A DNA stretch of 64,000 nt from Microbacterium sp. ProA8 (GTDB taxonomy: Bacteria > Actinomycetota > Actinomycetes > Actinomycetales > Microbacteriaceae), in NCBI RefSeq assembly GCF_039905635.1, contig NZ_CP157000.1, positions 4,309,777 through 4,373,776 of the forward strand, read 5' to 3'. Below the pieces are notes generated by a model. It was given only the letters and a program-made list of their open reading frames with translations, was not told where the DNA came from and searched no databases. Both the position numbers and the translations under genes were made by a program. Positions 5,393 through 62,848 of the stretch are shown in pieces. How positions within the stretch are numbered: the stretch's first letter is position 1; each line of letters opens with the position of its first letter.

Positions 5393-5465
5393 GCGTCTCA
5401 GCCCAGCGGACTGGTGGATGAAGTACAAGCGATGCTTTTCTCATGGAACCGTGTAGCGTTGCTTC

Positions 5466-6377: not shown

Positions 6378-6406
6378 CGCACGAGTGCCGCGGCGATGAC
6401 CCTGAC

Positions 6407-41869: not shown

Positions 41870-44239
41870 ATGATCGTGACCCCACCGCGAGCCCTGCAGC
41901 GTCCCGCGCGCCGCGCCCCGCGTTTCGTGACCGCCGCCGTCGCGGCCGTCGCGGTGCTTGCGGGACTCCTCGTGCCCGGCGCCGGTTTCGCGGCGAGCCC
42001 CGAGCCCTCGCCGAGCCCGACGTCGACGATTCCCGCCGGCACCACCGTGTTCACGCTGTCGCCGCTCGCCAACGGCGTCGTGCGCCCGGGCGAGCCGCTG
42101 AGCGTCACCCTCTCGCTGCAGAACGGCACGGACGCCGCCACCGCCCCCTCGACCGTGACGCTGTCACTCGGCCGCACCCCGCTCGCCGACCGCGACGCGC
42201 TCGGCGACTGGCTCGACCAGGCGGAGGCGCCGCCGGAGCTCGAGCAGATCGCCACCGAGACCCTGGCCGGAGTCGAGCCGGGTGCGGTGGAACGACAGGG
42301 CATGACGATCGCGTCCGCGGATCCGGTCCTCGCAGGTCGCGCGCCCGGCGTGTACCCGCTCGCTGCGTCGTACGAGGGCGACGGCGGCACGGTGACCGCC
42401 ACGAGCGCGATGATCGTGCCTCCCGACGACGCCACGGACGTCGGCATCGGGGTCATCGTGCCGATCACCGCAGGCCCGCTGAGCGAGGGGCTGCTCACCT
42501 CGGAGCAGCTCGCCGAGCTGACGGCACCCGAGGGCGACCTGACCGTCCAGCTCGACGCGGTCACCGACACCGGGGCGATCCTCGCGGTGGACCCTGCCGT
42601 GCCGGCGGCGATCCGGGTGCTCGGCACCTCGGCGCCGACATCGGCGCTCGAGTGGCTCACGCGCCTCGAGAGCATGCAGAACTCGAGGTTCGCGCTGCAG
42701 TTCGGCGACGCCGACGTCACCGCGCAGCTGCAGGCCGGCGCCCCTCAGCCGCTCGCGCCGACGTCGTTCATCACCTACATGTCGCCGTCGGACTTCACCG
42801 CTCCCACGCCCACGCCGACCGCCACACCTGATCCCACCGCCTCCGGCACGCCGACACCGACGCCGACGCCGACACCGCAGCCGTCCGACTCGCTGCCGAG
42901 CACAGAGACGCTCCTCGCGATCGGCCCGGCCACGCGGCCGGGGGTCTTCTGGCCGGCCGACGGCACCGCCGACGCCGACATCGTCTCGCGCCTCGGCGCG
43001 CTCGGCACCGCGGCGGCACCCGCGACGACGATCGTCCCGTCGTCGACGACGCGGGCCGGAGCCGCCGGCCGCTCGGTGGCAGCCCGCGGTCTCGTCGGCG
43101 ACGCCGAGGTGCTCGTGTACGACAGCGATGTCTCGTCGGCCCTCGACGAAGCGTCGCAGAGCGACGAGCCCTGGCTCCGCGGTGCGCCCCTCACGGCCGC
43201 CACCGCGTACCTCGCCTTCGCCGCAGCCGACGCCGACGGCCCACTGCTCGTGACGGTCGGGCGCGGCGACGGACGCCCGGGCTTCGGACTGGCGGCCGCC
43301 ATCTCGGCCGCCGCGTCGGCGCCCGGCGTCACCCCCCGCACCCTCCCTGCAATCGCGGCGGCCGAGGCGCGGGAGGTCGAACTCGCCGACACCGAAGCCC
43401 CCCTGGAGCGGGCGGCTGCGGCATCCGCTCTCCTCGGCGAGGAGGGCGAGCTCGCGCGGTTCGCGACGATCCTCGACCAGCCGCCCCTGCTCACCGGCCC
43501 CGAGCGTGCCGAGATCCTGCAGGTGCTCGGCGCCGCGTGGATCGGCGACGACACCTGGCCCGCCACGATCGCCGACCACCGTGCGCAGACCGCGGACGCA
43601 CTCAACTCCGTGGCGCTGCTGCCGACCAGCCCGAGCGACCTGTACGGGTCGAGTGCCGCCCTGCGGTTCTGGGTGCGCAACGATCTGCCCTACCCCGTCA
43701 ACCTCGTGCTGTACACGACCCGCGACAACCTCCGCCTCGACGTCCAGGGCGAGACCCCCGTCGTCGCGACGCCGTCGAGCAACACGCGCGTCGAGGTGCC
43801 GGTGCAGGCGCGGGTGGGCCGAGGCGACGTCACCCTCAGCCTCCAGCTGCGCAGCCCCGCCTTCGTGGCGATCGGCGACCCGGAATCGGTCGAGATCAAC
43901 GTGTACGCCGACTGGGAGACCGCCGGCATCGCGGCCCTCGCCGTGCTTGTCGGCATCCTCCTCGTGATCGGCATCGTGCGCACCGTGCTGCGCATGCGCC
44001 GGCGACGACGGGGAACGGATGCCGTGGGCCCGGGCGCGGCTCGTGGGTCGGGCGAGGGTGCGGGCCCAGGGTCGGGCGCCGCAGTCGATCGCGCTGCGGC
44101 GGGCGACCACGCCGTGGCGGACGGTGACGCCCCTGCCGGCGGCGCCCCGCTGGACAGTGAGTCGCCGGCCAACGGCGACGCCGCGGCACCCGGCCGAGCT
44201 GTCGCCGACCCCGCCTCGAGCGACGAGCCCCAGCGATGA
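41870..44239 (+). CDS. DUF6049-family exported membrane protein
   Basis: 789 residues. Signal peptide (residues ~18-42: VTAAVAAVAVLAGLLVPGAG) and a large extracytoplasmic region. It includes a Thr/Pro linker (TPTPTATPDPTASGTPTPTP, about residues 305-340) and a late Ig-like part (NLVLYTTRDNLRLDVQGETP). A single TM helix near 690 (IAALAVLVGILLVIGIVRTV) is followed by a charged, Ala/Gly-rich cytoplasmic tail. It always sits before murJ in actinobacteria; here its stop overlaps the murJ start by 4 bp. The role is probably in cell-wall synthesis; the mechanism is unknown. A TAGAAT -10-like box lies at 41812-41817. Confidence 0.9.
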   Translation: MIVTPPRALQRPARRAPRFVTAAVAAVAVLAGLLVPGAGFAASPEPSPSPTSTIPAGTTVFTLSPLANGVVRPGEPLSVTLSLQNGTDAATAPSTVTLSLGRTPLADRDALGDWLDQAEAPPELEQIATETLAGVEPGAVERQGMTIASADPVLAGRAPGVYPLAASYEGDGGTVTATSAMIVPPDDATDVGIGVIVPITAGPLSEGLLTSEQLAELTAPEGDLTVQLDAVTDTGAILAVDPAVPAAIRVLGTSAPTSALEWLTRLESMQNSRFALQFGDADVTAQLQAGAPQPLAPTSFITYMSPSDFTAPTPTPTATPDPTASGTPTPTPTPTPQPSDSLPSTETLLAIGPATRPGVFWPADGTADADIVSRLGALGTAAAPATTIVPSSTTRAGAAGRSVAARGLVGDAEVLVYDSDVSSALDEASQSDEPWLRGAPLTAATAYLAFAAADADGPLLVTVGRGDGRPGFGLAAAISAAASAPGVTPRTLPAIAAAEAREVELADTEAPLERAAAASALLGEEGELARFATILDQPPLLTGPERAEILQVLGAAWIGDDTWPATIADHRAQTADALNSVALLPTSPSDLYGSSAALRFWVRNDLPYPVNLVLYTTRDNLRLDVQGETPVVATPSSNTRVEVPVQARVGRGDVTLSLQLRSPAFVAIGDPESVEINVYADWETAGIAALAVLVGILLVIGIVRTVLRMRRRRRGTDAVGPGAARGSGEGAGPGSGAAVDRAAAGDHAVADGDAPAGGAPLDSESPANGDAAAPGRAVADPASSDEPQR

Positions 44240-45849
44240 GCGGCATCGGGCGGGCGAGCGTCCTCATCGGCGCGGGCACGATCGTCTCGCGCTTGACCGG
44301 CTTCCTGCGCGCGGTCGTGCTGGTGTCGGCGGTGGGTGCGACCACCGCGGGGGGCAACGCGTTCGCGATCGCGAACCAGCTTCCCAACAACATCTACGCC
44401 ATCATCTCCACCGGCCTGCTGAGCGCAGTCGTCGTCCCCCAGATCGTGAAGGCCGCCGCACACGATGATGGCGGGCGGGCGTTCGTATCCAAGCTGTTCA
44501 CGCTCGGCACCGTGGTGCTGCTCGCAACCGCGGTCGTCGCCACGGTGGCCGCACCTTGGCTGGTCACGCTCTATGCGCCGGGCTTCTCGCCGGAGCAGCA
44601 AGCACTGGCGACGGCGTTCGCCTATTGGTGCCTGCCGCAGATCCTGTTCTACGGGCTCTTCGCCCTCGTCGGCGAGTCGCTCAATGCCCGCCGCGTCTAC
44701 GGCCCGTACACGTGGGCACCGATCGTCAACAACATCGTGTCGATCGCCGGTTTCGTGGCATTCATCTGGCTCTTCGGTCCGGCCGGAACGTCCACGGAGT
44801 GGACACCCACGATGGTCGCCGTGCTCGCCGGAACCGCCACGCTCGGCATCGTCGTGCAGACGGCCATCCTCTTCGCCTTCTGGCGGCGGACCGGGCTGCA
44901 CATCCGACCCGACTTCCGGTGGAAGGGCGTGGGCCTCGGCCAGATCGGAAAGCTGGCGGGCTGGACCTTCCTGATGGTCGTGGCCGGACAACTCGCCGGG
45001 ATCGTGCAATCCCAGGTGATGTCACAGGTCCCCGCGGGAGATCCTGGCGTCTTCGTCGCAGGCAACGCGTGGCTGCTCTTCATGCTGCCGTACTCGATCA
45101 TCGTGCTGTCGATCGGAACGCCGTACTTCACGCAGTTGAGCGAGCATGCCACGGCCGGACGCGACGAGGAGGTGCGCAGCGACATCAGTCGCAGCATCCG
45201 CATACTGGGCCTCTTCGTCGTCGCCGCGACCGCCGCACTGGCGGTGGCGGCGATCCCGGCGTCTCGCATCTTCACCGGAAGCCCCGCTGAGGCCACGGGC
45301 GCAGCCGGCGTCCTGCTCTGCTATCTCATCAGTCTCATTCCGCTTGCGGTGCTGTTCGTGGTGCAGCGAAGCTTCTACGCCTACGACGACACACGGACGC
45401 CGTTCATCTTCACCATCGTGCAGTGCGCGCTCGTCGTACTCACGGCCTGGGGCGCCCTCTGGGCCTTCGAAGCCGGCGTTCTGCCAGCCGCCCAGCTGAC
45501 CGCGGCGGTCGCTCTCGGCCAGTCCTTTTCCAGCGTCGTCCAGGTGATCATCGCGACCTGGCTGCTCAACCGGCGCCTCGGGGGCATCGGCGTCGGCTCG
45601 TGGCTGCTGTCGCTGGGGCGCTTCGTGCTCGCGGCGGTGCCCGCCGGTGCCGTGGGCTGGCTGGCCTTCCAGCTGATGGGCGGCGTCGATGGATGGACGG
45701 TGTCCGACAAGGTGCTCGGAGCGGTCGGTGCGGCGATCATCGGAGTGGTCGTGCTCGCGGTGTACGGCGCGATCCTCGCGCTCCTGCGCGCGCCCGAACT
45801 CTCGGTGGCGATGGGCCTCGTCCGGCGCTTCCTGCCGGGTCGCCGCTGA
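44236..45849 (+). CDS. murJ: Lipid II flippase MurJ
   Basis: A 537-residue, 14-helix MOP-superfamily flippase that moves lipid-linked peptidoglycan precursor across the membrane. Signatures: RASVLIGAGTIVSRLTGFLR (N-terminal amphipathic/TM1), GNAFAIANQLPNNIYAIIS, and the central Arg-rich loop regions. The ATGA overlap with the DUF6049 gene implies coupled translation. Unlike mycobacterial MviN it has no kinase-like C-terminal extension. Confidence 0.95.
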   Translation: MSGIGRASVLIGAGTIVSRLTGFLRAVVLVSAVGATTAGGNAFAIANQLPNNIYAIISTGLLSAVVVPQIVKAAAHDDGGRAFVSKLFTLGTVVLLATAVVATVAAPWLVTLYAPGFSPEQQALATAFAYWCLPQILFYGLFALVGESLNARRVYGPYTWAPIVNNIVSIAGFVAFIWLFGPAGTSTEWTPTMVAVLAGTATLGIVVQTAILFAFWRRTGLHIRPDFRWKGVGLGQIGKLAGWTFLMVVAGQLAGIVQSQVMSQVPAGDPGVFVAGNAWLLFMLPYSIIVLSIGTPYFTQLSEHATAGRDEEVRSDISRSIRILGLFVVAATAALAVAAIPASRIFTGSPAEATGAAGVLLCYLISLIPLAVLFVVQRSFYAYDDTRTPFIFTIVQCALVVLTAWGALWAFEAGVLPAAQLTAAVALGQSFSSVVQVIIATWLLNRRLGGIGVGSWLLSLGRFVLAAVPAGAVGWLAFQLMGGVDGWTVSDKVLGAVGAAIIGVVVLAVYGAILALLRAPELSVAMGLVRRFLPGRR

Positions 45850-49937: not shown

Positions 49938-50915
49938 TCAAGCCGGGCCGTACTCGGTCTCTCCCAGCTCACCCAGGATGCGATTGAGGTCCTCGATGCT
50001 CGCGAAATCGATCGCGATCTGGCCTTTTCTTGCGGTCAGTGAGATCTTCACGCGGGTGTTGAGGCGGTCGCCGAGCCTTTCGGCAACCTCGTCGAGGTGA
50101 GCGCGGCGTGAGCCGGCCTGGGGTTTCACGGCGCGGTTGGGCGAGGCATCCGGAAGCTTCGCCGCAGCCTCCGCTGCACGCACCGACAGATCCTCGTTCA
50201 CGATCTTGTCGGCGAGGCGCTGCATCGCCGTGGCGTCCTCGAGGGAGAGGATCGCGCGGGCGTGACCGGCCGTCAGCACACCGGCGGCCACACGCTGCTG
50301 CACAGGCATCGGCAGCTTCAGCAGCCGGATCGTGTTGCTGATCTGCGGCCGCGAACGGCCGATGCGGGTCGCGAGCTCTTCCTGCGTGATGCCGAAGTCC
50401 TCGAGCAGCTGCTGGTACGCCGACGCCTCTTCGAGCGGGTTGAGCTCGGAGCGGTGAAGGTTCTCGAGGAGGGCGTCGCGGAGGAGGTGCTCGTCGGCGG
50501 TGTCGCGCACGATGGCCGGGATCGACGTGAGGCCGGCCTCTCGGGCGGCGCGCGTACGGCGCTCACCCATGATGAGCTCGTACTCGCCCTTCTCGTTGGT
50601 GCGCACCACGACCGGCTGCAGCACGCCGAATTCGCGCACGCTGTGCACGAGCTCCGCGAAGTGCTCGTGGTCGAAGTTCGTGCGCGGCTGGCGCGGGTTG
50701 GGAACGATGTCGTGCGGGTCGATGTGGGCGAGCCGCGCACCGGGAACCTCGACCAGGTTCTCCTGGGAGTCGGCGGTGACCGCTTCGACCGATGGTGCTT
50801 CATCGACCGCGACAGCACGCGGGAAGAAGACATCGGATGGGCGGTCGTCAGCCTGCTCGTTCGTCGGGATCAATGCGCCGATTCCGCGGCCGAGCCCTGT
50901 GCGCTTCGCAGCCAT
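49938..50915 (-). CDS. parB: Chromosome partitioning protein ParB
   Basis: 325 residues. An N-terminal region with VPNPRQPRTNFDHEHFAELV and IMGERRTRAA (the GERRxR CTP-binding motif) is followed by the HTH core (FGITQEELATRIGRSRPQIS) and a C-terminal dimer domain (AIDFASIEDLNRILGELG). It binds parS, loads CTP, and slides to form the partition complex with ParA and SMC. Its ATG overlaps the parA stop by one base. It is the expected reader of the parS sites at 52.6-61.1 kb. Confidence 0.97.
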   Translation of the reverse strand: MAAKRTGLGRGIGALIPTNEQADDRPSDVFFPRAVAVDEAPSVEAVTADSQENLVEVPGARLAHIDPHDIVPNPRQPRTNFDHEHFAELVHSVREFGVLQPVVVRTNEKGEYELIMGERRTRAAREAGLTSIPAIVRDTADEHLLRDALLENLHRSELNPLEEASAYQQLLEDFGITQEELATRIGRSRPQISNTIRLLKLPMPVQQRVAAGVLTAGHARAILSLEDATAMQRLADKIVNEDLSVRAAEAAAKLPDASPNRAVKPQAGSRRAHLDEVAERLGDRLNTRVKISLTARKGQIAIDFASIEDLNRILGELGETEYGPA

Positions 50916-52750
50916 CAGACGCCCCTTTCATTCGAGGCGCTATCGCGCCGGATCATCTCGACAGCCGCTTCGCGGTAGGCGATGGCGCCGGCCGACTGTC
51001 CATCGTAGGCGAGAACCGACTGGCCGAAGCTCGGCGCCTCGGAGACGCGGACCGATCGGGGAATGATGGTGTCGAGCACCTCCTTGGGGAAGTGCTCGCG
51101 CACCTCGTCGGCGACCTGCTGGGCAAGGCGCGTGCGACCGTCGTACATCGTCAGCATGATGGTCGACAGCTGCAGCCGCGGATTCAGGTGCTTCTGGATC
51201 ATGCGCACGGTGCCGAGCAGCTGGCTCAGTCCTTCGAGCGCGTAGTACTCGCACTGGATGGGGATCAGCAGTTCGGTGGCCGCGGTGAAGGCGTTGATCG
51301 TGAGCAGACCGAGCGAGGGCGGGCAGTCGATCAGGATGAAGTCGAGCTCTCCCTCGTGCTTCGCGAGGTAATCGTCGACGGCGACGCGCAGCCGGTGCTC
51401 TCGCGCGACCTGCGACACCAGCTCGATCTCCGCGCCGGCGAGGTGGATCGTACTCGGAGCGCAGAGGAGGTTGGGCGACTCCGGGCTGACCTGGATGATG
51501 TCGGAGAGGGGGAATTCGTCGATGAGCACGTCGTACACGCTGGGAATGTCAGCGGTGTGCGGAACCCCGAGCGCCGTAGAGGCGTTGCCCTGCGGATCCA
51601 GGTCGATCACGAGGACCCGGGCGCCGCGCTCGGCGAGGGCCGCCGCCAGGTTCACCGTCGTGGTCGTCTTTCCGACGCCGCCCTTCTGGTTCGAGACCGT
51701 CAGCACGCGGGTGCGGCCGGTGAGCTGAACCTCGGCCTCCTCGAGCGCCTTGCGGCGTGCCGTCAGGTCCGCGAGCTCGCGGGCGATCGGCGAGTCGTCT
51801 TCTTCCTGCCCGATGGTGACGCCGTGGTGCTGCGCGATGGGGGAGTCCTCTTCCTGCGTGGCGGTCGTGCTCTCGTCCGAGGCGTCGGCGGGAGTGACGT
51901 CGGGTGCCGGCTCGGGTGCCGGACCAGCGTAATCGTCGGCCGCGACATCGGCGTCGGTGCCCGTGGCGCCCGGCGGCAGTTCGTCCGGCGTGACGTCGTC
52001 GGTCGGCGCGCTGTCCTCGCCCGGCGTTGCGTGCTGGGCCGGCGTGACGTCTTCGTCCGGTGTGACCTCTTCGTCCGGCGTGACCTCTTGGTCCCGCGTG
52101 ACGTCTTCGTCCGGTGCGGCGTTCTCGTTGTGCACGACATCTTCGTTCAGCGCAACGTTGTCGTCCGAGACATCCTGCATCGGCGCGAGTCGCTCGTCGG
52201 ACGCGACATCGTCGTGCGGCGCGACGTCTTCGTTCAGCGCGACGTCTTCGTTCAGCGTGACGTCTTCGTTCAGCGTGACGTCTTCGTTCAGCGTGACGTC
52301 TTCGTTCAGCGTGACGTCTGCGTTCGGCGCGGCCCCCTCGTCAGGCGCGAAACCGTCAACCGCAGCCGCCTCAGCTTCGGCGAAGTCTTCACCCGCAGAC
52401 GTGGACGAGACCTCTTCGCTGATGCTCGTCGCGGACGCCTGGATGCTGTCGGAGACCTCGTCATCGGTGCGAGGTTCGGCTGCGCTCTGCGACGCGGTGT
52501 CCGCCTCCGGGGCGGGCGACTCTGCGGCGCCGGAGGACTCAGCAGAACCTCGGACACTGTCGTCCGAGGAAGCTGCCGGGGACTCGGTCGCCAGCGCGGT
52601 GAGCGGGCGATCGGACGAGAAGGATGCCTGAGCGTCGGTCTCGTCGGGTTGTTTCACGTGAAACTCTCCCCTTTGCGCGAGCCGCTCAACATCGCCTTCC
52701 ACCTTATCCCGCCTTCCCCCCATCCCCAGCCGTCGGAGCCAGTTGTTCAT
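50915..52750 (-). CDS. parA: Chromosome partitioning ATPase ParA with a giant acidic repeat extension
   Basis: 611 residues. The ATPase core is only the last ~265: VSNQKGGVGKTTTTVNLAA (Walker A Lys ~360), VLVIDLDPQGNAST, FILIDCPPSLGLLTINA. The first ~340 residues are unusual. After a basic start (NNWLRRLGMGGRRDK) comes a parS site read as EFHVKQ. Then there are ~260 acidic, Ser/Ala/Thr/Glu/Asp-rich residues with tandem hexapeptides of the type DVTLNE or DVTPDE. The segment before the core (SPIARELADLTARRKALEEA) is the normal ParA N-terminus of this family. The upstream start is supported by continuous frame and repeat structure, but an internal start cannot be excluded. Confidence 0.9.
   Translation of the reverse strand: MNNWLRRLGMGGRRDKVEGDVERLAQRGEFHVKQPDETDAQASFSSDRPLTALATESPAASSDDSVRGSAESSGAAESPAPEADTASQSAAEPRTDDEVSDSIQASATSISEEVSSTSAGEDFAEAEAAAVDGFAPDEGAAPNADVTLNEDVTLNEDVTLNEDVTLNEDVALNEDVAPHDDVASDERLAPMQDVSDDNVALNEDVVHNENAAPDEDVTRDQEVTPDEEVTPDEDVTPAQHATPGEDSAPTDDVTPDELPPGATGTDADVAADDYAGPAPEPAPDVTPADASDESTTATQEEDSPIAQHHGVTIGQEEDDSPIARELADLTARRKALEEAEVQLTGRTRVLTVSNQKGGVGKTTTTVNLAAALAERGARVLVIDLDPQGNASTALGVPHTADIPSVYDVLIDEFPLSDIIQVSPESPNLLCAPSTIHLAGAEIELVSQVAREHRLRVAVDDYLAKHEGELDFILIDCPPSLGLLTINAFTAATELLIPIQCEYYALEGLSQLLGTVRMIQKHLNPRLQLSTIMLTMYDGRTRLAQQVADEVREHFPKEVLDTIIPRSVRVSEAPSFGQSVLAYDGQSAGAIAYREAAVEMIRRDSASNERGV
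52221..52328 (-). repeat. 18-bp tandem repeats in the parA extension
   Basis: Six in-phase units, the first five nearly identical (plus-strand unit G(C/T)GACGTCTTCGTTCAGC, 52221-52310) and the sixth diverged. Older, more varied 18-bp units (…GTGACGTCTTCGTCCGG…) extend left to about 52010. They encode DVTLNE/DVALNE and DVTPDE-type hexapeptides. Confidence 0.9.
52651..52664. promoter_or_regulatory. parS site 1 (perfect), inside the parA coding region
   Basis: GTTTCACGTGAAAC, the 14-bp palindrome bound by ParB. It lies within codons of the ParA N-terminus (EFHVKQ). Confidence 0.9.
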
Positions 52751-53067
52751 GCGTTCCTTACCGTTGCGAGCGGGCCTGCCATCGCTCTAGTCAACATCGC
52801 AAGACCCCGTCGGCGGCGCTAACCCGCCGCTTCCGGGGAAGCCCGAGTGCCGATTGAGGCGGATGCAGCGCAGGACCGACGTGAGGGATCGCGCGGAGCC
52901 CGTCACGGCCTCGAAAATCGCTCGGTTTGCCACTTCGCCGGGGACTCCGCTTCGGAGGATCGGGCTCGCGGCGGGAGGATGATGCCTTCCTCGGACCGAA
53001 GGGATCGAAGCCGCGGCACAAGCTCCAGCGCGTGTGCACGCGGTCACAACGGGGTCCTCAGTCGATG

Positions 53068-53083
53068 TGTTTCACGTGAAACA
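53068..53083. promoter_or_regulatory. parS site 2 (perfect 16-bp)
   Basis: TGTTTCACGTGAAACA, the full 16-bp palindrome, in gene-free DNA 318 bp from the parA start. Confidence 0.95.
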
Positions 53084-53756
53084 TCATGGGATCGGCTGGC
53101 TGCGCTTCACGCTGTCCAAGCGAGACTCCCGGTGCGTTTGCGCCGGCGTGGGCTCCCTCCTTCGACGCCCTGGGGCGGCCTGTCCGAGCGCATCGCGATG
53201 CCGCACCATTGCTTGAGCCGGTTGAACCAGCATTCGCGGACGACGCCGCGGCCCGTTGTAGCGGTCCTGCTGGTCACCGAACTCGATCGGCCGGCCCGGC
53301 TTCTTGCGGCGATGCGCGCTCTGATCGCCGCGCTCCGGGTTCTGCGGCTGCCGTCACCGCGCGAATCCGCGCACCGTAGCACCGCTCCGTCGGTGAATGA
53401 ATCGGGGCGCGCGTCGAGCCCAGCGGACAACTGCAAGGGTCGTTTCGTCCACCGCCTACGGGCTCCCGAACGCGCCGCGATCCATAGCGGCAGCGCGCTC
53501 ACTCCCCTGTGGACCTGTGAAGTCACACTGTCGAGAGCCGCGCACATGATGGCGCCGCACCTGGGGCAGCGGATGGGCGCTCTCGGTCGGCGTCGTTTTC
53601 CCACACTTTGACGCCGGCGCTTCATCTCCTACGGACAGCCGCCGAGGTGGCGTGCCCGCCCTCGTGCCAACGACGCTTCCAACGCCCGCTCGGAAACGGC
53701 TTGGGCGCATCGCGTCCGCTCGAAGCAGCGCTGCGCTGCGCTGCGCTGCGGCGAGT

Positions 53757-53770
53757 GTTTCACGTGAAAC
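53757..53770. promoter_or_regulatory. parS site 3 (perfect 14-bp)
   Basis: GTTTCACGTGAAAC. A short CTGCG pentamer run lies just to the left (about 53730-53750). Confidence 0.95.
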
Positions 53771-54597
53771 GCCCGAGCCTCACCACCGGCGCCTGCTGGC
53801 CATCGGAGCTGGTGTTACCCAGGCGCCGCCCGTTAGAACTGCGGCGTCAGACATCAGGCAGTGCCTTGTCGGCTTCAGTGAGCCTTGATTCTTCGGAGAT
53901 CCGGCACGGGACCACCGTCCAGTGCGCTCAGCCGGCCGCTGCAGTGTCACGACGCCGACGCGGCGAACCGCGCCAACCGTCTTCCTCTATGTGCCAGCAC
54001 TGTCCACGACTCGAATGGTGGCGGACACCAGCCGAGCCCCCGCGACCGCTTCACTCAAGCATCCGGCAGGCAGCGACGTCGACGACGCCGCACGGCATCG
54101 TCGCGATACTCAAGAAGGTCGTTGACCCGCATGTCCGCTCGACAGCCATCTCCCACTGACACCACTGCCATACGTTCGCACGCTCACCCGATTCCCTGCT
54201 TGGCACCCACTTCGGCTCGTCTGATGGCTCCGCGGTCAGACATAGGTGCACACGCGACGCCGTCGCGTCGTGGCGCTCACCCACGCAGCGGCTGCCACTG
54301 TCGGTCGACGCGGCTCAGAGGAACAATCAGATGGAGGCTGCGCCAGCACCCACTCGAGCACGGATCGTGAGAGAGCCGCGATCAATGGGCTAGCGCTGCC
54401 TACACCGATCCGCTCCGCCGTCAGAGCCGAAACCGACCGCTCGCAGCGAGCCATCAGCGCACGAACACCACGCACCGGGGTTTTTCGCACTCGAGTGGCT
54501 GGATCCCTGACTCGGCACCCACGTCACGCCTCCGCCCGCAGGTCCGGCCACCGCGATCACAGGACGCCCTTTGTCAGACATCCAGGTAGAGCCCAGT

Positions 54598-54611
54598 GTT
54601 TCACGTGAAAC
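54598..54611. promoter_or_regulatory. parS site 4 (perfect 14-bp)
   Basis: GTTTCACGTGAAAC in gene-free DNA, 227 bp from site 5. Confidence 0.95.
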
Positions 54612-54823
54612 GTCGGGCTCTGCGCTCGTGCAGGAGGCACGCGCCGCTTGGCGATCTCTCTCCAAGCCGCCGGTACGCATGCCTACGCCAATGTCGCCAA
54701 CTCCTTGCCGTCGCGAGACTCAAGCAGCCTTCAGTAACTCTGCCCTCCGCAGAATCGATCATGGTTCGGAGCGACGTACTCCAGTCGGCTGAAGACGACC
54801 ACACCGGGCGCCTCCCGTGGCGC

Positions 54824-54839
54824 TGTTTCACGTGAAACA
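54824..54839. promoter_or_regulatory. parS site 5 (perfect 16-bp)
   Basis: TGTTTCACGTGAAACA in gene-free DNA. Confidence 0.95.
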
Positions 54840-55465
54840 TGCGCGTGACGACCGCAGGCCGAGACGTCTAGGAAGGAATCGGTGTGCCCTCGGCGACAGC
54901 CACGACAAGAACTTCGTCAATCGTCAGCAGGCGTGGACCCTCGCGCGCCCGATTCGCCTAAAGCTTCCGCGCGATCGGAGGCCAATGGTGAGCAGTCTGC
55001 GGTTCGTCGCCCGCCAGGTGGGAACCTGCCCAGCCAGCCCCACGACATGAACGGGTGGACTTTCGCACCCGTTGTCACGCCACAGTGGTGCCCGCGGACG
55101 GGCCTGCCGATGCGAGTGGCCAGCGATCTGGTCCCGGCCGCCGATCGATACTCCATTCGCGCGTGCCCTTCACGCGGCTGGTCCGGCCCACAGAAAGGGG
55201 CGCGACTGCGGCCCAGCCCTCGGAGCCACCGGATGTGTCCATGGGCGCAATCGCAAGCCCGTACCAAATCCAGCGCCTACAGCGCGGCGAGCGGTAGGAA
55301 CGGGAGGCGCCAGTCGCGCCCGCCAACCGCGCGCAGCTTGGCCGTCGTCCCGGCCGGCTCGACCACAAGTGGAGGACACCAGCCATCAACCGCAAATGCT
55401 CCCAAGCAAGGCCAGGACCGGGCGTGCAGCGGTTCATCTAGGTGCTTCTGCTCGCATTCTCGGAC

Positions 55466-55479
55466 GTTTCACGTGGAAC
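55466..55479. promoter_or_regulatory. parS site 6 (one mismatch)
   Basis: GTTTCACGTGGAAC; the right arm has G for A. It is the last site before the tandem repeat array. Confidence 0.75.
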
Positions 55480-55711
55480 GTCTGGCCATAGGCGGCATCG
55501 GTTGCGCCGAGCCAGGGGATTTGACCGCCGGCACACTCCAACCGTTCTACAACCGTCGGAACAGCCGTCAACGCTAGATCGCTCGCCGGAGTTCGATTTA
55601 GTGCCCAGCCGCCGCCTCTCACCCCTCTGCCACCTTCGGGTCGGCCGCAGCGCCGCGCACCCGCCGAGTGCCTCATGCGCGGAACAGGCGGCCACTGAAT
55701 ACGGAGGGAGC

Positions 55712-56690
55712 TCATCACCTCAAGACGGACCTGCGCGCCTCGCGCCAGCAGGAAACGAGCGGTGGGAGCCCCCGCGCCGGTGTCAAGCGACCCACAAGGA
55801 GGCGTGTGCCAACGACCGCTCGCGCGCGGAGCAGCGGCCGCGCTAATCGCGGGGGATCTCACACCTCAAGACCGGCCTGCACGCCTCGCGCCAGCAGGCA
55901 ACGAGCGGTGAGCCCCTCATCCCGCGGTCAAGCGACCCGCGAGGTGGTGTCCGCCAACGACCGCTCGCGCGCGGAACTGGCGGCCGCGCTAACCGCGGGA
56001 CGATCTCACCACTTCAACGCCGGCCTGCACGCCTCGCGCCAGCAGGCAACGAGCGGTGAGTCCCTCATCCCGCGGTCAAGCGACCCGCGAGGTGGTGTCC
56101 GCCAACGACCGCTCGCGCGCGGAACTGGCGGCCGCGCTAACCGCGGGACGATCTCACCACTTCAACGCCGACCTGCACGCCTCGCGCCAGCAGGCAACGA
56201 GCGGTGAGCCCCTCATCCCACGGTCCGCGACCCACGAGGAGACGTCCGCCAACGACCGCTCGCGCGCGGAGCAGGCGACCGCGCTAACCGCGGGACGATC
56301 TCACCACCTCAACACGGACCTGCACGCCTCGCGCCGGCAGGCCACGAGCGGTGGAAGACCTCATCCGCGGTCAAGCGACCCGCGAGGAGGTGTCCGCCAA
56401 CGACCGCTCGCATGCGCCAGCAGGCGGCCGCGCAATACGGGGGAGGACCTCACCTCAACACCGACCTGCACGCCTCGCGCCAGCAGGCAGCGAGCCGTGG
56501 AGCCCTCGTCCCGCGGTCAGGCGACCCGCGAGGCGGTGTCCGCCAATGACGCTCGCGCGCGGAGCAGGCGCCCGCGCAGTACGGGGGAGGATCTCATCAG
56601 CTCGACGCGGGCCGTCCGACGCGCGCCAACAGGCAGCGACCGGTCGGAGCCGTCGCGCCGCGGTGTGCGGCGATGCGCCCCACCTGCTGC
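55712..56690. repeat. Tandem array of ~147-bp units (six clear copies plus diverged ends)
   Basis: Unit starts at about 55712, 55859, 56006, 56154, 56301, 56448 and a diverged 56594. Each unit opens TCA(C/T)CAC(C/T)TCAA and contains CTGCACGCCTCGCGCCAGCA, ACGAGCGGTG, AAGCGACCCGCGAGG and CGCCAACGACCGCTCGC. Copies 2 and 3 are almost identical; outer copies are more diverged, so the array grew from the middle. A 3' fragment of another unit precedes it (55672-55711). There are no frame-preserving features, so it is not a protein repeat. No parS lies inside it. Confidence 0.85.
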
Positions 56691-57213
56691 CGATCCAGCC
56701 TGTCCCACACACGCGAGGCGGGCGTCACGCGAGTACGTCGAGCCGCGGCACTGGGTCAACGGACCTCGGGTGCGCCGGCACTCTCAAGGCCGTACCGACC
56801 TATGCGCGCACCTCCTGCCCCATCGTCCACCGCCCCCTGTCGCAGCGAGTGTGGTCAACCGATAACCGCGGGCGACAGAGTGACCCAAACGCCACGGCCG
56901 CCAATCATCCCGCTCACTCGCCGTGGGACGCCACCCCGCCGAGTGAGAACGGCCGCGATCGTGCTCGTCCTACGCGGGAGTTGTCAGCCAGCGAGCCGCT
57001 CTGGCATCCCACGTAGCCGCCGAGGGAGCGGTTCCTCCCTGCCCACATGAGGTGGCGGTGCTACATGGCGCTCTCGGGGATCTCGGTGACCTCGATGCCC
57101 TACTGGCGGGCGATCCCAGCCGCGCGCAGCGGCGAAACCGCCGGCGCACGCCGACGCTCAGCCCCTGGAATCCCCACGCCCCGCGCACCGTCAGCGGCCG
57201 CGGTCCGGATCAA

Positions 57214-57229
57214 TGTTTCACGTGAAACA
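57214..57229. promoter_or_regulatory. parS site 7 (perfect 16-bp)
   Basis: TGTTTCACGTGAAACA, the first site after the tandem repeat array. Confidence 0.95.
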
Positions 57230-57706
57230 CTGAGCGCGATACCGGCACCTTCAGCGGCAAACTCCCGGCCCCGCGAGCCACACCAACCAAGCGCAGGCCG
57301 CAGCCCAACCACCAGCGCCCAAACGTGTGAGCCGGGGGCGCCCGACCATGAGTCGTTCCCGACTCGACGAGCTCCGGCAACAGGCCGCACAGCTGTACGG
57401 CGCCGGCAAACGCAAACCGCGCTGGTCGGCACCCGGGGAGCCCTCGTCCAGCGCTCACAGGCGAGGTGCGTCCTCGCCTGCCGGCGCATCGCTCCGCTGC
57501 CGGGGCGCCTCGAGTCGCGTGGACCACCAGCTCTGGCACGAGCACACACGGCTACCGGCAACTCACTCCTACCCGGCCGCGGATTACGTAGCCGACGTTA
57601 CCCCGACCCTCGCACTGGCGGCACGGCCCCTGAAAGCACGGCGATTGACGCGTCCGGCGGTCGCGACAGCGAGTTCGGCCGCGACCAAGGCGGATGCAGT
57701 GGCGGC

Positions 57707-57720
57707 GTCTCACGTGAAAC
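57707..57720. promoter_or_regulatory. parS site 8 (one mismatch)
   Basis: GTCTCACGTGAAAC; the left arm has C for T. Confidence 0.75.
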
Positions 57721-58248
57721 ATTGGTAAGCGGGGTGCGTCATCCGTCGCATCCGCCGTGGCAGTACATAGAGCCTGGTGTGACCGCGGTCCGTTGGCCCG
57801 CGCGGCGAATCCCGGCTCGACAGGCCCCGGCCAGCACGGCACGCGAGCACTGTGGCTCCCCGGACGGAGCACCTAAGCGGCCGGCGCATCCATCAGCCTG
57901 CGACACGCCATGCTCCGCGGCGGCTCCCCGACGGTGGAATCTGCAGAGACCGGCGACGACGTTCGGAAGCCGACGCAGCGGCGCCAGCCCCGGCACGCAG
58001 CAAACCACGTCTCGTCACTGCAGCCCGTGCCGGCCAACCAGAGCCGAGAGCGGGTGGGTATAGCCGCCTGTCCTCCGGCGCGTTCGGCGCCCTGATCCTG
58101 ACGTTCCCTCGCTTCCCGGCAATCGACGTCGACGAGCGCCAGCGTTGAACGAAGAACCAGGGCAGCCGGTGCGGCGGTCCTGTTCTGTTCCTCGGTGCTC
58201 ACCATCCACCCAAGCCCCGTGGCGGGCTACAGCGCACGGCATCCTGAT

Positions 58249-58262
58249 GTTTCACGTGAAAC
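58249..58262. promoter_or_regulatory. parS site 9 (perfect 14-bp)
   Basis: GTTTCACGTGAAAC, 174 bp from site 10. Confidence 0.95.
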
Positions 58263-58422
58263 CACCTCGCCGCCTGCCTTCCCTTCGCCTTGACGGCACG
58301 TCGGGACAGCGCCATGGCTGGCAAGGACGAGTCGGGCTTCATAGCGCTGAGCCAGGGTGGAAATACGCGGCACCGGCACCGACGGCACAACGCCCCCGGA
58401 ACAATCGCTTGCGGGGCCGGAC

Positions 58423-58436
58423 GTTTCACGTGAAAC
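58423..58436. promoter_or_regulatory. parS site 10 (perfect 14-bp)
   Basis: GTTTCACGTGAAAC, about 260 bp upstream of the first membrane-protein gene. Confidence 0.95.
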
Positions 58437-58697
58437 ACCGGTGTTTCGCGCTGCTTGCCTCTGAGGCCGGCAAAGTCTCGCCGTCTATGTTCTCCACTGC
58501 GCTTCGCCCGGCGAAGCGCCCAAAGTTGGCGGCCTGCAGAACCGAGCTCGCACGCCATGCAACGCAGGGGGAGCGAACAGCGGAACACCGCTGCCCTCAG
58601 ACAGGCGCTCACTTCTGCGGCGGGATCCGGGAGCCGCCCACGCAGGTCCCTGGTGGAAGCAATGGCACCTTCGTGGTTGCGGGTGTACCGTGCGCAC

Positions 58698-59249
58698 ATG
58701 GGGAGCTCGCCGCCCTCGGGCGGCGCAAAACAAGTTGACGCGCGCCGTGGGAGGTTGGACTCGGCGTCCGCTCGGCGTGCGATCATCGCGCTTGGCATCG
58801 GCTTGCTCGTCGGCGTGGTGGTCGCCACCGCGGCGTTCATCGTAGAGCCGTCCACGGATGCCGACCCCACCGCGCCGGGCATCGTGGAGCCATCCGGAGA
58901 TGCCGACGCGACGCTAGAACCCACCGGAATCCCGGCAGACGAGCTGACCCTTCGACTGCTCGAGCCTCCCGAGGCAGCCCATCTGGAGATAGACCTCACC
59001 ACGCTGCGCGGCTTCGGCGACCACGATGGTGTCGACATGTGGTCCGCGTCCAACGCCTTCGGGTCGCCGTGCCTCATCGCCATTCACAGGGAGACCGCCG
59101 ACGTTCTCGGCACCTCCTGCGTCCCCACCGGCGGGACGACCTTCGTCGATACGCGGTGGCATGGGCTCCCTCCCGGCGCGGCCTACCGCTTCACACTCCG
59201 CGGGGACGCAGTCGACGTCCACCACCTTCTTCCCATGGGAGCGCCGTGA
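58698..59249 (+). CDS. Single-pass membrane protein with extracellular two-Cys domain (paralogue A)
   Basis: 183 residues. One TM helix near residues 28-50 (RAIIALGIGLLVGVVVATAA) is followed by an Asp/Pro linker (STDADPTAPGIVEPSGDADA) and an outside domain of about 95 residues. In that domain a strand pair carries Cys (SPCLIAIHRET ... GTSCVPTGGT), ending DVHHLLPMGAP. The same domain order and Cys pair recur in the next gene. I do not recognise a family. The start is chosen at MGSSPPSGG. The gene lies inside the parS-rich region and its GTGA end overlaps or abuts the next start. Confidence 0.7.
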   Translation: MGSSPPSGGAKQVDARRGRLDSASARRAIIALGIGLLVGVVVATAAFIVEPSTDADPTAPGIVEPSGDADATLEPTGIPADELTLRLLEPPEAAHLEIDLTTLRGFGDHDGVDMWSASNAFGSPCLIAIHRETADVLGTSCVPTGGTTFVDTRWHGLPPGAAYRFTLRGDAVDVHHLLPMGAP

Positions 59250-59251
59250 CC

Positions 59252-60064
59252 ATGGACACGTCCGACGACCCGACCGACACCCAACGCGAGCTCCGCGAAC
59301 TGCGGGCGCGCGCCTACGGTCCCGCGGCAGACATCGACGGCGACCCGGTGGCTCTCGCACGCCTCGCCCATCTCGAGAGACTCCAGCGGCGGGCACGCTC
59401 GTCTACCGAAGTGCCTCAAGAAGCGCTCCAGGAAACGGGAGTCGCCGCGCCGGCTGAGAACCTTCCGGCGCCGATCGACGCTATCGACAACAGCACGATG
59501 CGCGCTGAGGCCACGCGATCTTCCGCGACCCCCGGCGATGCCGATCGACGTCGCTCACGGTGGCACCGCGCTCTGACGACTCGAGGCGAACTGGTACTGC
59601 TCGCCGTGTCCGCGGCCATGACGATCATCGCCCTCGTCTACTGCGTGGATTGGCTGATGACGCCTCGCCCCGCCGCGTCTCTGCAGCCGACGGCGCCCCC
59701 CGGCGAGGGGGGAGCGGCCGGGCCCGATCGCTGGATCGTGGTGAGCAGCGAAGATGACCTGTTCGCAGAGCTGATCATCGATCAGCGGACACTCACCCCT
59801 TACGGTTCCTTTCATGGCGTCGAGGTATGGGCAGCCGACGATGACCTCGGCACCGCCTGCCTCATCCTCATCGAGGAAACAAGCCAGCAGACGCTCCAGG
59901 CAGTATGTACACCACGCTCCGGCGCATTGATCGCAGACGTCGGGGCATGGCCGTACTTTGACGACGACTTCGCCGAAGACCTCACGGCGGGGACTGTGCT
60001 GCGTTTCCAGCATCGCGGATCAACAGTCGACGCCTTCATCATCGAGGCGACCGACGCTCCCTAG
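59252..60064 (+). CDS. Single-pass membrane protein with extracellular two-Cys domain (paralogue B)
   Basis: 270 residues. A cytoplasmic helical segment (DTQRELRELRARAYGPAADI, ALARLAHLERLQRRARS) is followed by one TM helix near 110-135 (ELVLLAVSAAMTIIALVYCV) and an outside domain homologous to paralogue A (HGVEVWAADDDLGTACLILI ... QAVCTPRSGALIAD ... VDAFIIEATDAP). The Cys pair is conserved. Start: ATG at 59252, or the GTG at 59246 overlapping the previous stop as GTGA; GGGAG at 59237-59241 could serve either. Function unknown; co-transcribed with paralogue A. Confidence 0.75.
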   Translation: MDTSDDPTDTQRELRELRARAYGPAADIDGDPVALARLAHLERLQRRARSSTEVPQEALQETGVAAPAENLPAPIDAIDNSTMRAEATRSSATPGDADRRRSRWHRALTTRGELVLLAVSAAMTIIALVYCVDWLMTPRPAASLQPTAPPGEGGAAGPDRWIVVSSEDDLFAELIIDQRTLTPYGSFHGVEVWAADDDLGTACLILIEETSQQTLQAVCTPRSGALIADVGAWPYFDDDFAEDLTAGTVLRFQHRGSTVDAFIIEATDAP

Positions 60065-60187
60065 ACCCCCAGGCCAAGTGTGGTGGTACGGGCAAGCGAT
60101 GAAGCAGCCCGCAGCGGTGAAGCGCCGCCAGGCGGTGCAAGCCTGGCGTACAACAACCGCGCAGACGAGCGTCAGCCATGACACCGC

Positions 60188-60203
60188 TGTTTCACGTGAA
60201 ACA
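60188..60203. promoter_or_regulatory. parS site 11 (perfect, extended palindrome)
   Basis: TGTTTCACGTGAAACA, extended by CCGC/GCGG to a 24-bp palindrome at 60184-60207. It is the most symmetric parS in the window. Confidence 0.95.
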
Positions 60204-60330
60204 GCGGCCAACAAGAAGCGGCGGCTCCGCTACGTCGGAGGACGGCAGCTCAACCTCGGCACATTGAAACCGAGGACCCAACGCCGATGCGAGGGGAGAA
60301 AAGCCCACGGCGGCATCACGAAGTCCCGAA

Positions 60331-60344
60331 GTTTCACGTGAAAC
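60331..60344. promoter_or_regulatory. parS site 12 (perfect 14-bp)
   Basis: GTTTCACGTGAAAC, 142 bp from site 11 and 114 bp from the rsmG stop. Confidence 0.95.
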
Positions 60345-60457
60345 AACAGGAATCTCACTCGTGTCCACCGGCACACCACCGACGGATCCGGCTCACGCGG
60401 TGCAAGAGCACCCGAAACGACCATCGCTCCAGCAGCCCGCGTGGGCCCAGATCGGCG

Positions 60458-61108
60458 TCAGCGAACGGTGCCGCGAATCACCCGAGAGGGCTCCTCGAGC
60501 AGGTCCTCACCGACGACCTCGACACGCGCGTTCGTGACCTTGAACTTGCGGAGCTGCTTCTCGGCAGCCTCGATCTCGTTCGTGGCGCTCGTACCCTTGA
60601 GCAGGATGAGCTCGCCGCCGGAGCGGACCAGGGGAGCGGTGATCGGTACGAGGGTGCGCAACGCGCTCACGGCGCGGGCCGTGACGGCGTCGAGCACCGG
60701 ACCGCGCTTCCAGTCCTCGGCTCGCGCACGTACCACTTCGACGTTGGCGAGCTCGAGGGCGTCGACCTGCTCCGACAGCCATGCGACGCGTCGCTCCATC
60801 GGCTCGATCAGAACCCACTCCACGTCAGGCCGCGCGATGGCGAGCACGAGTCCCGGAAGACCGGCTCCCGAGCCCACGTCACCGACGCGACCGGAGAACA
60901 GTGGTGCGATCACGGCACTGTTCAGAATGTGGCGCGACCACAGGCGCGGCGGCTCGAGGGGGCCGATCAGGCCGCGCTCCTCGCCGTGCCGCCCGAGTGC
61001 GTCTGCGAACGCACGCGCGACCTCGATCCGATCGCCGAAGATCTCGGCCGCGGCCGCGGGCTCCTGCTCGATCTCGATCATCGACGCTTCCGAGCTCAGA
61101 TGTTCCAC
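60458..61108 (-). CDS. rsmG: 16S rRNA (guanine-527-N7) methyltransferase RsmG
   Basis: 216 residues with the SAM motif GDVGSGAGLPGLVLAI (about residues 76-91), preceded by ERGLIGPLEPPRLWSRHILN, a family signature. It modifies G527 of 16S rRNA. The GTG at 61108 lies inside a one-mismatch parS and has no clear Shine-Dalgarno. The ATG at 61081 (MIEIEQEP) follows GGAAG at good spacing and may be the true start. It follows jag by 14 bp. Confidence 0.93.
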   Translation of the reverse strand: MEHLSSEASMIEIEQEPAAAAEIFGDRIEVARAFADALGRHGEERGLIGPLEPPRLWSRHILNSAVIAPLFSGRVGDVGSGAGLPGLVLAIARPDVEWVLIEPMERRVAWLSEQVDALELANVEVVRARAEDWKRGPVLDAVTARAVSALRTLVPITAPLVRSGGELILLKGTSATNEIEAAEKQLRKFKVTNARVEVVGEDLLEEPSRVIRGTVR

Positions 61109-61115
61109 GTGAAAC
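61102..61115. promoter_or_regulatory. parS site 13 (one mismatch) over the rsmG 5' end
   Basis: GTTCCACGTGAAAC. It overlaps the GTG start codon of rsmG and lies 8 bp before the jag stop, so it sits between two cotranscribed genes. It is the parS nearest oriC. Confidence 0.75.
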
Positions 61116-61122
61116 GCGCGGC

Positions 61123-61650
61123 TCAGCCGCGGCGGATCACGGTGTGGCGGTCGGCGCCTTCGCCGTACGACTCCGACACGAAGCCGCGGTCGGCGACGAT
61201 GTCGTGCACGACCTTGCGCTCGTAGCTCGACATCGAAGGCAGCGAGGCCTGCGAGGCCTGCGAGGCACCGTCATCCAGCCGCGCGATCGCGCGGTCAACG
61301 AGGGCTTCGAGCTCGTGCTGGCGGGCGTCACGCGAACCCCCGACATCCAGGATGAGGCGGGAGAACCGGCCGGTGCGGTTCTGCACGGCGATGCGCGTCA
61401 GCTCCTGCAGCGCCTGCACGGTGTCGGGTGCCGCAATGAGGGCCACCGATCCGCCCGACGGCGCGGCGACCGAGACATACGCGCGGCCCGCGCGCACGTC
61501 GAGGTCGAGGTCGCCGTCGATGTCGGCGATGTCGAGCAGGCCTTCGATGAAGTCGGCGGCGATGTCGCCTTCTTCTTCGAGCTGCGCCACGGTGGCGGGA
61601 ACCCGCTCCTCGCGCGTTTCGACGGGTGCGTACTCAGGGGACGTGGTCAT
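61123..61650 (-). CDS. jag: Jag/KhpB-like RNA-binding protein (KH and R3H domains)
   Basis: 175 residues. The acidic N-terminus (TTSPEYAPVETREERVPATV) leads into a KH-type domain (~45-110) and an R3H domain whose Arg-x3-His is in YERKVVHDIVADRGFVSESY. It binds RNA in the cytoplasm and is a conserved neighbour of yidC. The S/A/Q run ASQASQASLP before R3H is a small local repeat. 25 bp after yidC. Confidence 0.93.
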   Translation of the reverse strand: MTTSPEYAPVETREERVPATVAQLEEEGDIAADFIEGLLDIADIDGDLDLDVRAGRAYVSVAAPSGGSVALIAAPDTVQALQELTRIAVQNRTGRFSRLILDVGGSRDARQHELEALVDRAIARLDDGASQASQASLPSMSSYERKVVHDIVADRGFVSESYGEGADRHTVIRRG

Positions 61651-61675
61651 GTCGTGATCCTCGTAAGACGGCGGG

Positions 61676-62848
61676 TCAGGAAGCGGAGCCGGCGGAGCCG
61701 GGCGATCCAGGGGAGTCGGTCTCACCGGCGGCACCGGCGCCACCGGCTGCCGGGCCGGCGGCCTTCTGCCCGGACTGCTTCTGCTGCGCCTGCTTCTTGG
61801 CGCGCTGCTTGCTCACCGGCTGCTGGCGCTTGGGGGTTGCGGCCTTGGCCTTCTCGGCCTCTTCGTACAGACGGCGCTGCTCGGCGAGGTACTTCTCCAT
61901 CGGCACGACCTTGCCCGATGCGTCGAGCGCCTTGCCCTTGCGCGCCAGGCGCTCTTCGCGCGCCTTGGCCGCGTCGGAACCGGGGGTCGGCATCTCACGG
62001 ATGACCAGGAACTGCTGGCCCATCGTCCACAGGTTCGACACGAACCAGTAGATGACGACGCCGAGCGGGAAGAAGACGCCGGAGAAGATGAAGCCCAGCG
62101 GGAGGATGTAGAGCATGATGCGCTGCATCTGGTACGCCTGGCCGGTCTTGGCCTCGGGGGAGAGGTTCTTCGAGATGATCTGCAGCTGCGTGAAGAACTG
62201 CGACGCGATCATCAGCACGACCAGCGTCAGCAGGATCGCGATGGCCGCGGTGTTGCCGGTGTTGAACGCATCGATCAGCGTCTCGTGGAGCGACGCCACA
62301 CCGAACAGCTTGGCGTTGTAGAACTCGGCCGTGAGCTCGGCGTTGAGCAGGCCGACGCCGCCGATGCCGGCGGCGTAGTGCTTGGTGACGTCGCTCAGCA
62401 CGCTGTACAGCGCGAAGAAGACGGGCATCTGCACCAGGAGCGGCAGACAGCTCGACACCGGGGTCGTGCCGTGCTTCTTGTACAGCGCCATCGTCTCGCG
62501 GCTCATGGCCTCGCGCGAGAGCTGATCCTTCTTGCCCTTGTACTTCTCCTGAACTTTCCGCAGTTCAGGAGCAATTTCCATCATCTTGCGCTGGCTCTTG
62601 ATCTGGCGCACGAAGAGGGGGATGAGGGCGGAGCGCACCACGATCACCAGGCCGACGATCGACAGCACCCAGGTGATGCCGTCCGCGGCCGGCAGGCCGA
62701 TGGCCGTGAAGAACCAGTGCCAGAAGACGAGTACCGCCTCGACGGCCCACTTCAGCGGCCAGAGGATGATCCCGAAGAGATCGAAGCCTCCGCTCGGCGC
62801 TGCGGGGGTTGGCGAGGGCGTCGAGGCCAGGGCTGACAAGAGATCCAT
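61676..62848 (-). CDS. yidC: Membrane protein insertase YidC
   Basis: A 390-residue YidC/Oxa1 insertase of the Gram-positive type without a large periplasmic domain. The conserved substrate-groove Arg is in VIVVRSALIPLFVRQIKSQR. Further signatures are SCLPLLVQMPVFFALYSVLS and LPLGFIFSGVFFPLGVVIYW. The C-terminal ~90 residues are a basic, Lys/Gln/Ala-rich ribosome-binding tail followed by a Gly/Ser/Pro-rich end. It inserts membrane proteins with or without SecYEG. Confidence 0.97.
   Translation of the reverse strand: MDLLSALASTPSPTPAAPSGGFDLFGIILWPLKWAVEAVLVFWHWFFTAIGLPAADGITWVLSIVGLVIVVRSALIPLFVRQIKSQRKMMEIAPELRKVQEKYKGKKDQLSREAMSRETMALYKKHGTTPVSSCLPLLVQMPVFFALYSVLSDVTKHYAAGIGGVGLLNAELTAEFYNAKLFGVASLHETLIDAFNTGNTAAIAILLTLVVLMIASQFFTQLQIISKNLSPEAKTGQAYQMQRIMLYILPLGFIFSGVFFPLGVVIYWFVSNLWTMGQQFLVIREMPTPGSDAAKAREERLARKGKALDASGKVVPMEKYLAEQRRLYEEAEKAKAATPKRQQPVSKQRAKKQAQQKQSGQKAAGPAAGGAGAAGETDSPGSPGSAGSAS

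Follow-up and report, generated by a model that had tools for sequence, protein, structure and literature searches.

A clustered parS array beside parA in Microbacterium sp. ProA8: sites apparently kept within fast-changing spacer DNA

What is known of the systems closest to a parS array? In chromosome partition, ParB is described as loading at parS sites, closing with CTP and sliding along the DNA, while ParA moves the resulting complex and SMC is recruited there; the GERRxRA motif of ParB has been tied to CTP (PMC7333895). Corynebacterium glutamicum, an actinobacterium with ParABS, is reported to have ten sites (parS1-10) in one origin-side cluster, nine of them outside genes, at which ParB loads SMC (PMC7083940). 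Streptomyces is likewise described with many parS near oriC, on one side (PMC8743542), and the mycobacterial locus with parA and parB in one operon and few parS (PMC2346475). Here we describe a parS array in the final 64 kb (hereafter the window) of the single 4,373,776-bp contig that makes up the genome of Microbacterium sp. ProA8. Its comparison with a close relative suggests, at the level of sequence, that evolution preserves nearly every site while the intervening DNA changes almost beyond recognition.

The array and its uniqueness

Searching the window for the 14-base palindrome GTTTCACGTGAAAC returned 13 matches at 52651-61115, all listed on the + strand, with the counts, positions and spacing (142 to 1766 bp) of the original prediction. 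Ten are perfect (52651..52664, 53069..53082, 53757..53770, 54598..54611, 54825..54838, 57215..57228, 58249..58262, 58423..58436, 60189..60202 and 60331..60344) and three carry one mismatch (55466..55479, 57707..57720 and 61102..61115). Widening the tolerance to at most three mismatches added no copies with two or three mismatches in the window; shuffled windows gave a mean of 1.07 matches at this tolerance, and none of 100 shuffles reached 13. In the whole genome, there were no further sites with zero or one mismatch outside the array, and a reversed control pattern gave zero. The expectation that the window holds no other copies thus stands, an equal density elsewhere was not seen, and the shuffles together with the whole-genome search rule out both a chance motif and a general genome-wide one.

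Eleven of the sites lie in the 7.7-kb gap between parA and rsmG (52751..60457). The original prediction had placed all 13 between parA and jag; the first, however, falls within the parA frame, in its 5' part, and the last straddles the called start of rsmG, itself situated between parA and jag. The description of the block as nearly gene-free is similarly correct for about 52.8-58.6 kb, which lacks codon periodicity, but not for the whole: two gene-like frames at 58674-60064, an IS5-type relic and a tandem array also occupy it, so that a fully gene-free block is ruled out by the accessory frames and the periodicity results. On the same contig dnaA begins at base 1, and the opposite end of the contig is 2.9 kb from the near and 11.3 kb from the far edge of the array. 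On a circular chromosome, this would place the array 2.9-11.3 kb from dnaA, and so near the origin. Its position beside parAB and the absence of another parS of zero or one mismatch in the genome support the proposal of a single chromosomal centromere cluster. The features expected of a ParABS centromere, namely many copies of the palindrome, cognate parA and parB, proximity to the origin, and conservation in relatives beyond that of the surroundings, are all found here.

Sites and spacers among related species

The closest relative found, Microbacterium sp. B35-30, is 94-95% identical from rsmG to yidC; across the collinear neighbourhood, the two genomes agree at 92.7% in coding sequence and at 83.0% of fourfold sites (7,997 sites). 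Between 52923 and 58668, by contrast, blastn against B35-30 gave no match above 60 bits. The alignment excess over shuffles was -0.02 to 0.10 in nine of the ten inter-site intervals and 0.26 in the interval that holds the accessory gene pair, against 0.07-1.03 in 45 intergenic controls from the same neighbourhood (median 0.85 in the 38 of comparable length; 0.18-1.01 in the 22 with periodicity below 0.15); only one of the 45 was as low as the spacers. Despite this divergence, the intervals share ancestry, to judge from their residual similarity: eight of ten score best, in their row of ten, with their own partner interval, five exceed every off-partner score, and the inter-site spacings agree beyond shuffled orders (permutation, P 0.012). 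All 11 gap sites have a partner of zero or one mismatch in B35-30, with 4 differences in 154 bases, where survival by chance at 70% identity would be about 0.5 of 11 sites by our arithmetic. The partners of the one-mismatch sites at 55466 and 57707 are perfect, and that of the perfect site at 60331 has one mismatch.

Other pairs of species extend the comparison. In Leaf320 and Leaf159 (loci L191 and L192), nine sites pair, with 2 differences in 126 bases, while the first two intervals are kept (excess 0.82-0.83) and the next six reach only 0.12-0.39. Among 16 pairs with codon identity above 0.90, the 12 in which both blocks exceed 3 kb have an excess of 0.016-0.263. In a third pair (L172 and L174), parS is carried on tandemly repeated units of about 130 bp; the two share 550 bp, with 4 sites in L174 and 3 in L172, the L174 contig ending about 550 bp from rsmG.

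Several observations weigh against so simple a contrast between sites and spacers. One B35-30 site, with one mismatch, is unpaired; the partners were assigned by order and spacing, and the agreement in spacing is modest; two of the ten intervals are without detectable homology. A 111-bp gap immediately downstream of parB, which scored lowest among the controls, has diverged to the level of the spacers; some of the longer controls show strong codon periodicity and probably represent genes that the gene caller missed; and the gene at 44236-45849 has a fourfold identity to B35-30 of just 0.51, where the average is 0.83. In the four pairs with shorter blocks, the excess is 0.247-0.760 at similar or lower fourfold identity, which indicates that fast change marks the expanded blocks and is not general to parS loci. 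Finally, the close pairs are few, and several share species and are not independent. The gene at 44236-45849 may itself have undergone replacement or local divergence.

Is the array exceptional for its genus? We compared 99 Microbacterium genomes, ProA8 included, of which 95 have rsmG; leaving out two at contig ends (G003 and G065) gave 93 loci, and four without parA reduced these to 89. A wider set of 149 unique loci yielded 138 blocks and 137 with all four proteins, representing 137 species, and a family sample comprised 149 genomes, of which 146 are from other genera and the rest are ProA8 and two other members of the genus. At least one site was present in 96 of the 99 and in 144 of the 149 genomes. 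The array had been called unusually large, which holds for its gap, the second longest of 137, but only in part for its count: at least 13 sites were found in 7 of the 98 other Microbacterium genomes (maximum 18) and in 4 of the 146 from other genera (maximum 17), and its 11 gap sites rank 11th of 137. These counts rule out a record site number.

Across the genus, site number runs from 3 to 18 and the distance between parA and rsmG from 4 bp to 11.3 kb (137 species). Gap length and gap sites rise together (Spearman 0.82 for the 89 loci and 0.86 for the 137 species), also by phylogenetic independent contrasts (r 0.70; 94 of the same and 27 of opposite sign, 137 species), and site density declines, from 10.4 per kb where the gap is below 0.5 kb to 1.5 per kb where it is above 5 kb (89 loci). 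Of the 89 loci, 80 have a parS within the parA frame, in its 5' part, and 61 have one at most 90 bp from the rsmG start; these two positions may represent the ancestral sites. In the nine species nearest to ProA8, the gap measures 4.6-7.1 kb, with 6-16 sites, and in the tenth to thirteenth 1.7-5.5 kb, the 1.7 kb belonging to L126, which is only slightly more distant; the gap of L030 is 3.1 kb. In M. allomyrinae (L127), eight parS lie beyond the far side of parB (4607-6580, reverse-complement coordinates), so that parAB is inside the cluster there. M. trichothecenolyticum DSM 8608 carries 10 sites.

We consider it likely that the block is an origin-proximal ParABS centromere array, expanded from the few sites of compact relatives, in which parS sites are individually selected and the spacer is indifferent to sequence. 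ParB dimers would load at every parS, form closed CTP clamps and spread by sliding across the gene-poor spacer, giving a single large partition complex, with the 13 sites serving as one dense loading zone; ParA would move this complex, and SMC-ScpAB would be loaded from it. Selection would act on the individual parS and not on the sequence of the spacer, which would drift by substitution and by heavy insertion, deletion and duplication, the same turnover adding and removing parS copies. That many ParB clamps are held at the array, one of the roles first suggested, is predicted by homology, through a ParB with the GERRTRA motif. Loading of SMC is possible, as the genome encodes one SMC_prok_B match over the family cut-off and one protein over the cut-off of TIGR00281, which we take to be ScpB. 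Distant parS sites are reported to increase SMC collisions, and in most bacteria parS are placed within 5-40 kb (PMC8357415); a clustered array would therefore suit SMC.

Could the spacers have diverged for reasons other than the absence of constraint? A local hypermutation, in which ParB and SMC raise the mutation rate of the DNA that they load, would fit the extent of the change: simulated random sequence comes down to an excess of 0.02-0.10 at about 0.6-1.0 substitutions per site and is still at 0.50-0.62 with 0.2, and fourfold sites show only about 0.19 (Jukes-Cantor, our arithmetic). However, fourfold identity is 0.79 in rsmG (138 sites) and 0.81-0.85 in parB, parA and yidC, where the average is 0.83, and that the flanking genes, including an rsmG situated between two parS sites, are so ordinary speaks against a regional rise in mutation. 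Stretches with few gaps, in the gene pair and in L191/L192, are about 68-72% identical, or about 0.4 substitutions, roughly twice the fourfold divergence; unconstrained DNA could give this value if codon bias slows the fourfold sites, and heavy insertion and deletion could also lower the excess. We thus regard hypermutation as unlikely. A different route to the same picture, the exchange of whole parA-rsmG gaps with other strains by recombination, would explain why similarity collapses sharply at both ends in several pairs, and other segments that lie between collinear flanks do differ wholly in ProA8 and B35-30 (for example, 4,360 versus 4,043 bp). Such replacement is nevertheless improbable: weak homology persists between most partner intervals, and the gene pair, intact in ProA8 and broken in B35-30, is collinear. 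A search of 366 Microbacterium genomes for a donor of 52930-58600, with two candidates scored in each, found the IS relic as the sole long outside match, all others being short; the plasmid matches listed were again the IS relic, and phages gave none. As the flanking genes are ordinary and no donor was seen, we favour unconstrained DNA with a strong turnover by insertion, deletion and duplication.

A second pair of alternatives concerns what selection sees. The gene-poor length might itself be selected, as a runway or insulation for sliding ParB from which transcription is kept off, with its sequence free. This would agree with the long gaps and many sites of the nine nearest species, although their spacers no longer align, with the absence of comparably long non-coding DNA elsewhere in the 204-kb neighbourhood, and with the lack of a sigma-70-like promoter and a near-expected number of terminator-like sites. 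In this sense, the kept sites, the unkept spacer sequence and the long gaps of the nine nearest species lend indirect support to the spacer role of the original prediction. On the other hand, the range of gap lengths in the genus and the short gap of L126 sit poorly with a required length, genes and an IS relic have entered the gap, and shared descent alone could keep lengths similar; selected spacing is therefore a tentative proposal, somewhat doubtful as it stands. The location of rsmG between two parS sites, moreover, argues against a strict avoidance of genes by sliding ParB. At the other extreme, duplicated parS might merely be tolerated near the origin, with most of them individually dispensable. 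A single parS is reported to support normal laboratory growth in C. glutamicum (PMC7083940), and added parS are described as tolerated only near the origin, in a 'self-reinforcing' expansion (PMC7333895). Such accumulation could also draw on the parS-bearing tandem units of L172/L174 and on the partial parS word TTCACGTG, which occurs 33 times, with 9.6 expected, in the spacers of 78 blocks, as decayed copies would give. Tolerance alone, however, does not predict sites kept amid nearly shuffled surroundings, and the window holds no relics with two or three mismatches, so that we give neutral accumulation little credence.

Neighbouring genes and the contents of the gap

The genes around the array are ordered parB, parA, gap, rsmG, jag and yidC, all on the - strand. 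ParB (49938..50915) has Pfam hits above cut-off to ParB_N, HTH_ParB and ParB_C, and its best solved relative by sequence is 6sdk_A, Stage 0 sporulation protein J (E 5.5e-51). The parA frame (50915..52750) encodes a Pfam AAA_31 domain at residues 348-527; the roughly 335 residues that precede it are partly encoded by degenerate 18-bp tandem repeats (51980-52329), and across the genus this N-side extension ranges from a few tens to 465 residues. A tie between its length and that of the gap was considered and set aside as weak (contrast r 0.20; 56 versus 53 signs). Beyond the gap follow rsmG (gidB; 60458..61108; Pfam GidB, 1.4e-44), jag (61123..61743) and yidC (61676..62848).

Within the gap, the codon-position GC spread over about 52.8-58.6 kb is 0.090, compared to 0.345 in positions 1-49800 of the window and 0.078 (sd 0.0075) in shuffles, and of all low-periodicity runs in 204 kb the longest two, 3.87 and 2.19 kb, both fall here, with the third measuring 0.99 kb. 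The relic of an IS5-family transposase (53173..53342) is 73-85% identical, in matches of at most 170 bp, to numerous copies from other Microbacterium genomes, and six of eight plasmid records listed carry the annotation IS5 family transposase. A tandem array of 5.9 copies of 148 bp (55711..56577, + strand; weaker extension to 56664) contains no parS; a 303-bp probe matched only that stretch in the genome, and as 148 is not a multiple of 3 it is no simple coding repeat. Two accessory genes on the + strand (58674..59249 and 59252..60064), with frame starts chosen by us, are distantly similar to each other and without Pfam or NCBIfam match; the pair has a predicted-looking hydrophobic stretch. 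Relatives of the first occur in nine of the 99 genus genomes, ProA8 included, in the other eight on a different contig or far from rsmG, and the pair thus looks like an insertion. In B35-30 the two are 72.5% and 68.0% identical and collinear, with no intact frame.

No Rfam family or tRNA was found in the window, phage searches gave no match, and a consensus scan found no sigma-70-like promoter, with 3 terminator-like sites where 3.5 were expected. Might the spacers conserve some other element? In a survey of 8-mers in 78 masked blocks of at least 1.5 kb, the top 25 words occurred in at most 27 of the 78 species and look like a dispersed repeat, and another conserved spacer element was rejected on this basis. 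Titration of DnaA was not supported either: of the words TTATCCAC and TTTTCCAC, which we assume to be DnaA boxes, the former occurred 2 times (0.8 expected) and the latter 0 times (1.4 expected) in these blocks. Some species have spacers enriched in words such as CGTATCGA and CTACTCAA. Elsewhere in the window, a palindrome-like dispersed repeat (about 2697-2899) matches several B35-30 contigs on both strands.

Significance and relation to known systems

The finding is relevant to the reasons for which bacteria retain multiple parS sites. One review raises the question of what underlies the variation in parS number, given that a single site is often enough, and of what causes the sites to cluster (PMC7333895). 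The comparison of close species represents a long natural experiment, in which the spacer has come near saturation and the sites remain. If the same is true in more pairs, 'redundant' parS would each be worth keeping in nature, a value that a laboratory growth test would miss. The genus itself, with its 3-18 sites and gaps from 4 bp to 11.3 kb, provides a ready series for studying how site number and spacing affect ParB condensates and SMC loading. A bolder idea, which we put forward with considerable reserve, is that of a regional bacterial centromere, whose length, site number and gene poverty are selected while its sequence is free, and in which each of about a dozen seemingly redundant parS is selected. 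If true, bacteria would have their own version of the centromere paradox, in which a function is conserved although the DNA beneath it changes fast. Among the matches listed from open-licence PMC, no paper on Microbacterium parS arrays or fast-changing parS spacers was found, which is weak evidence of novelty.

The array is of a known kind in an unusual form. Compact Microbacterium loci have the same motif in the same place, between or in parA and rsmG, but only 3-4 sites and a gap that can be as short as a few bp, so that the window stands at the expanded end of a continuous series. In mycobacteria gidB presumably lies beside parA-parB, whereas here rsmG and parA are separated by 7.7 kb with 11 sites. 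The C. glutamicum sites are reported as a 35-kb cluster among genes, 73 kb from oriC (PMC7083940), compared to 8.5 kb, 3-11 kb from dnaA and mostly within one long non-coding gap adjoining parA in ProA8. For Streptomyces a mean of 22.8 predicted sites (11-65) is given, about 45% of them in an island of about 50 kb and the rest beyond (PMC8743542), while all 13 sites of the present array are in 8.5 kb. By analogy only, eukaryotic centromeres are similar in that a conserved segregation function is described to reside on fast-changing DNA (PMC12925627); the Microbacterium array differs from them in that the predicted ParB-binding sites are themselves conserved.

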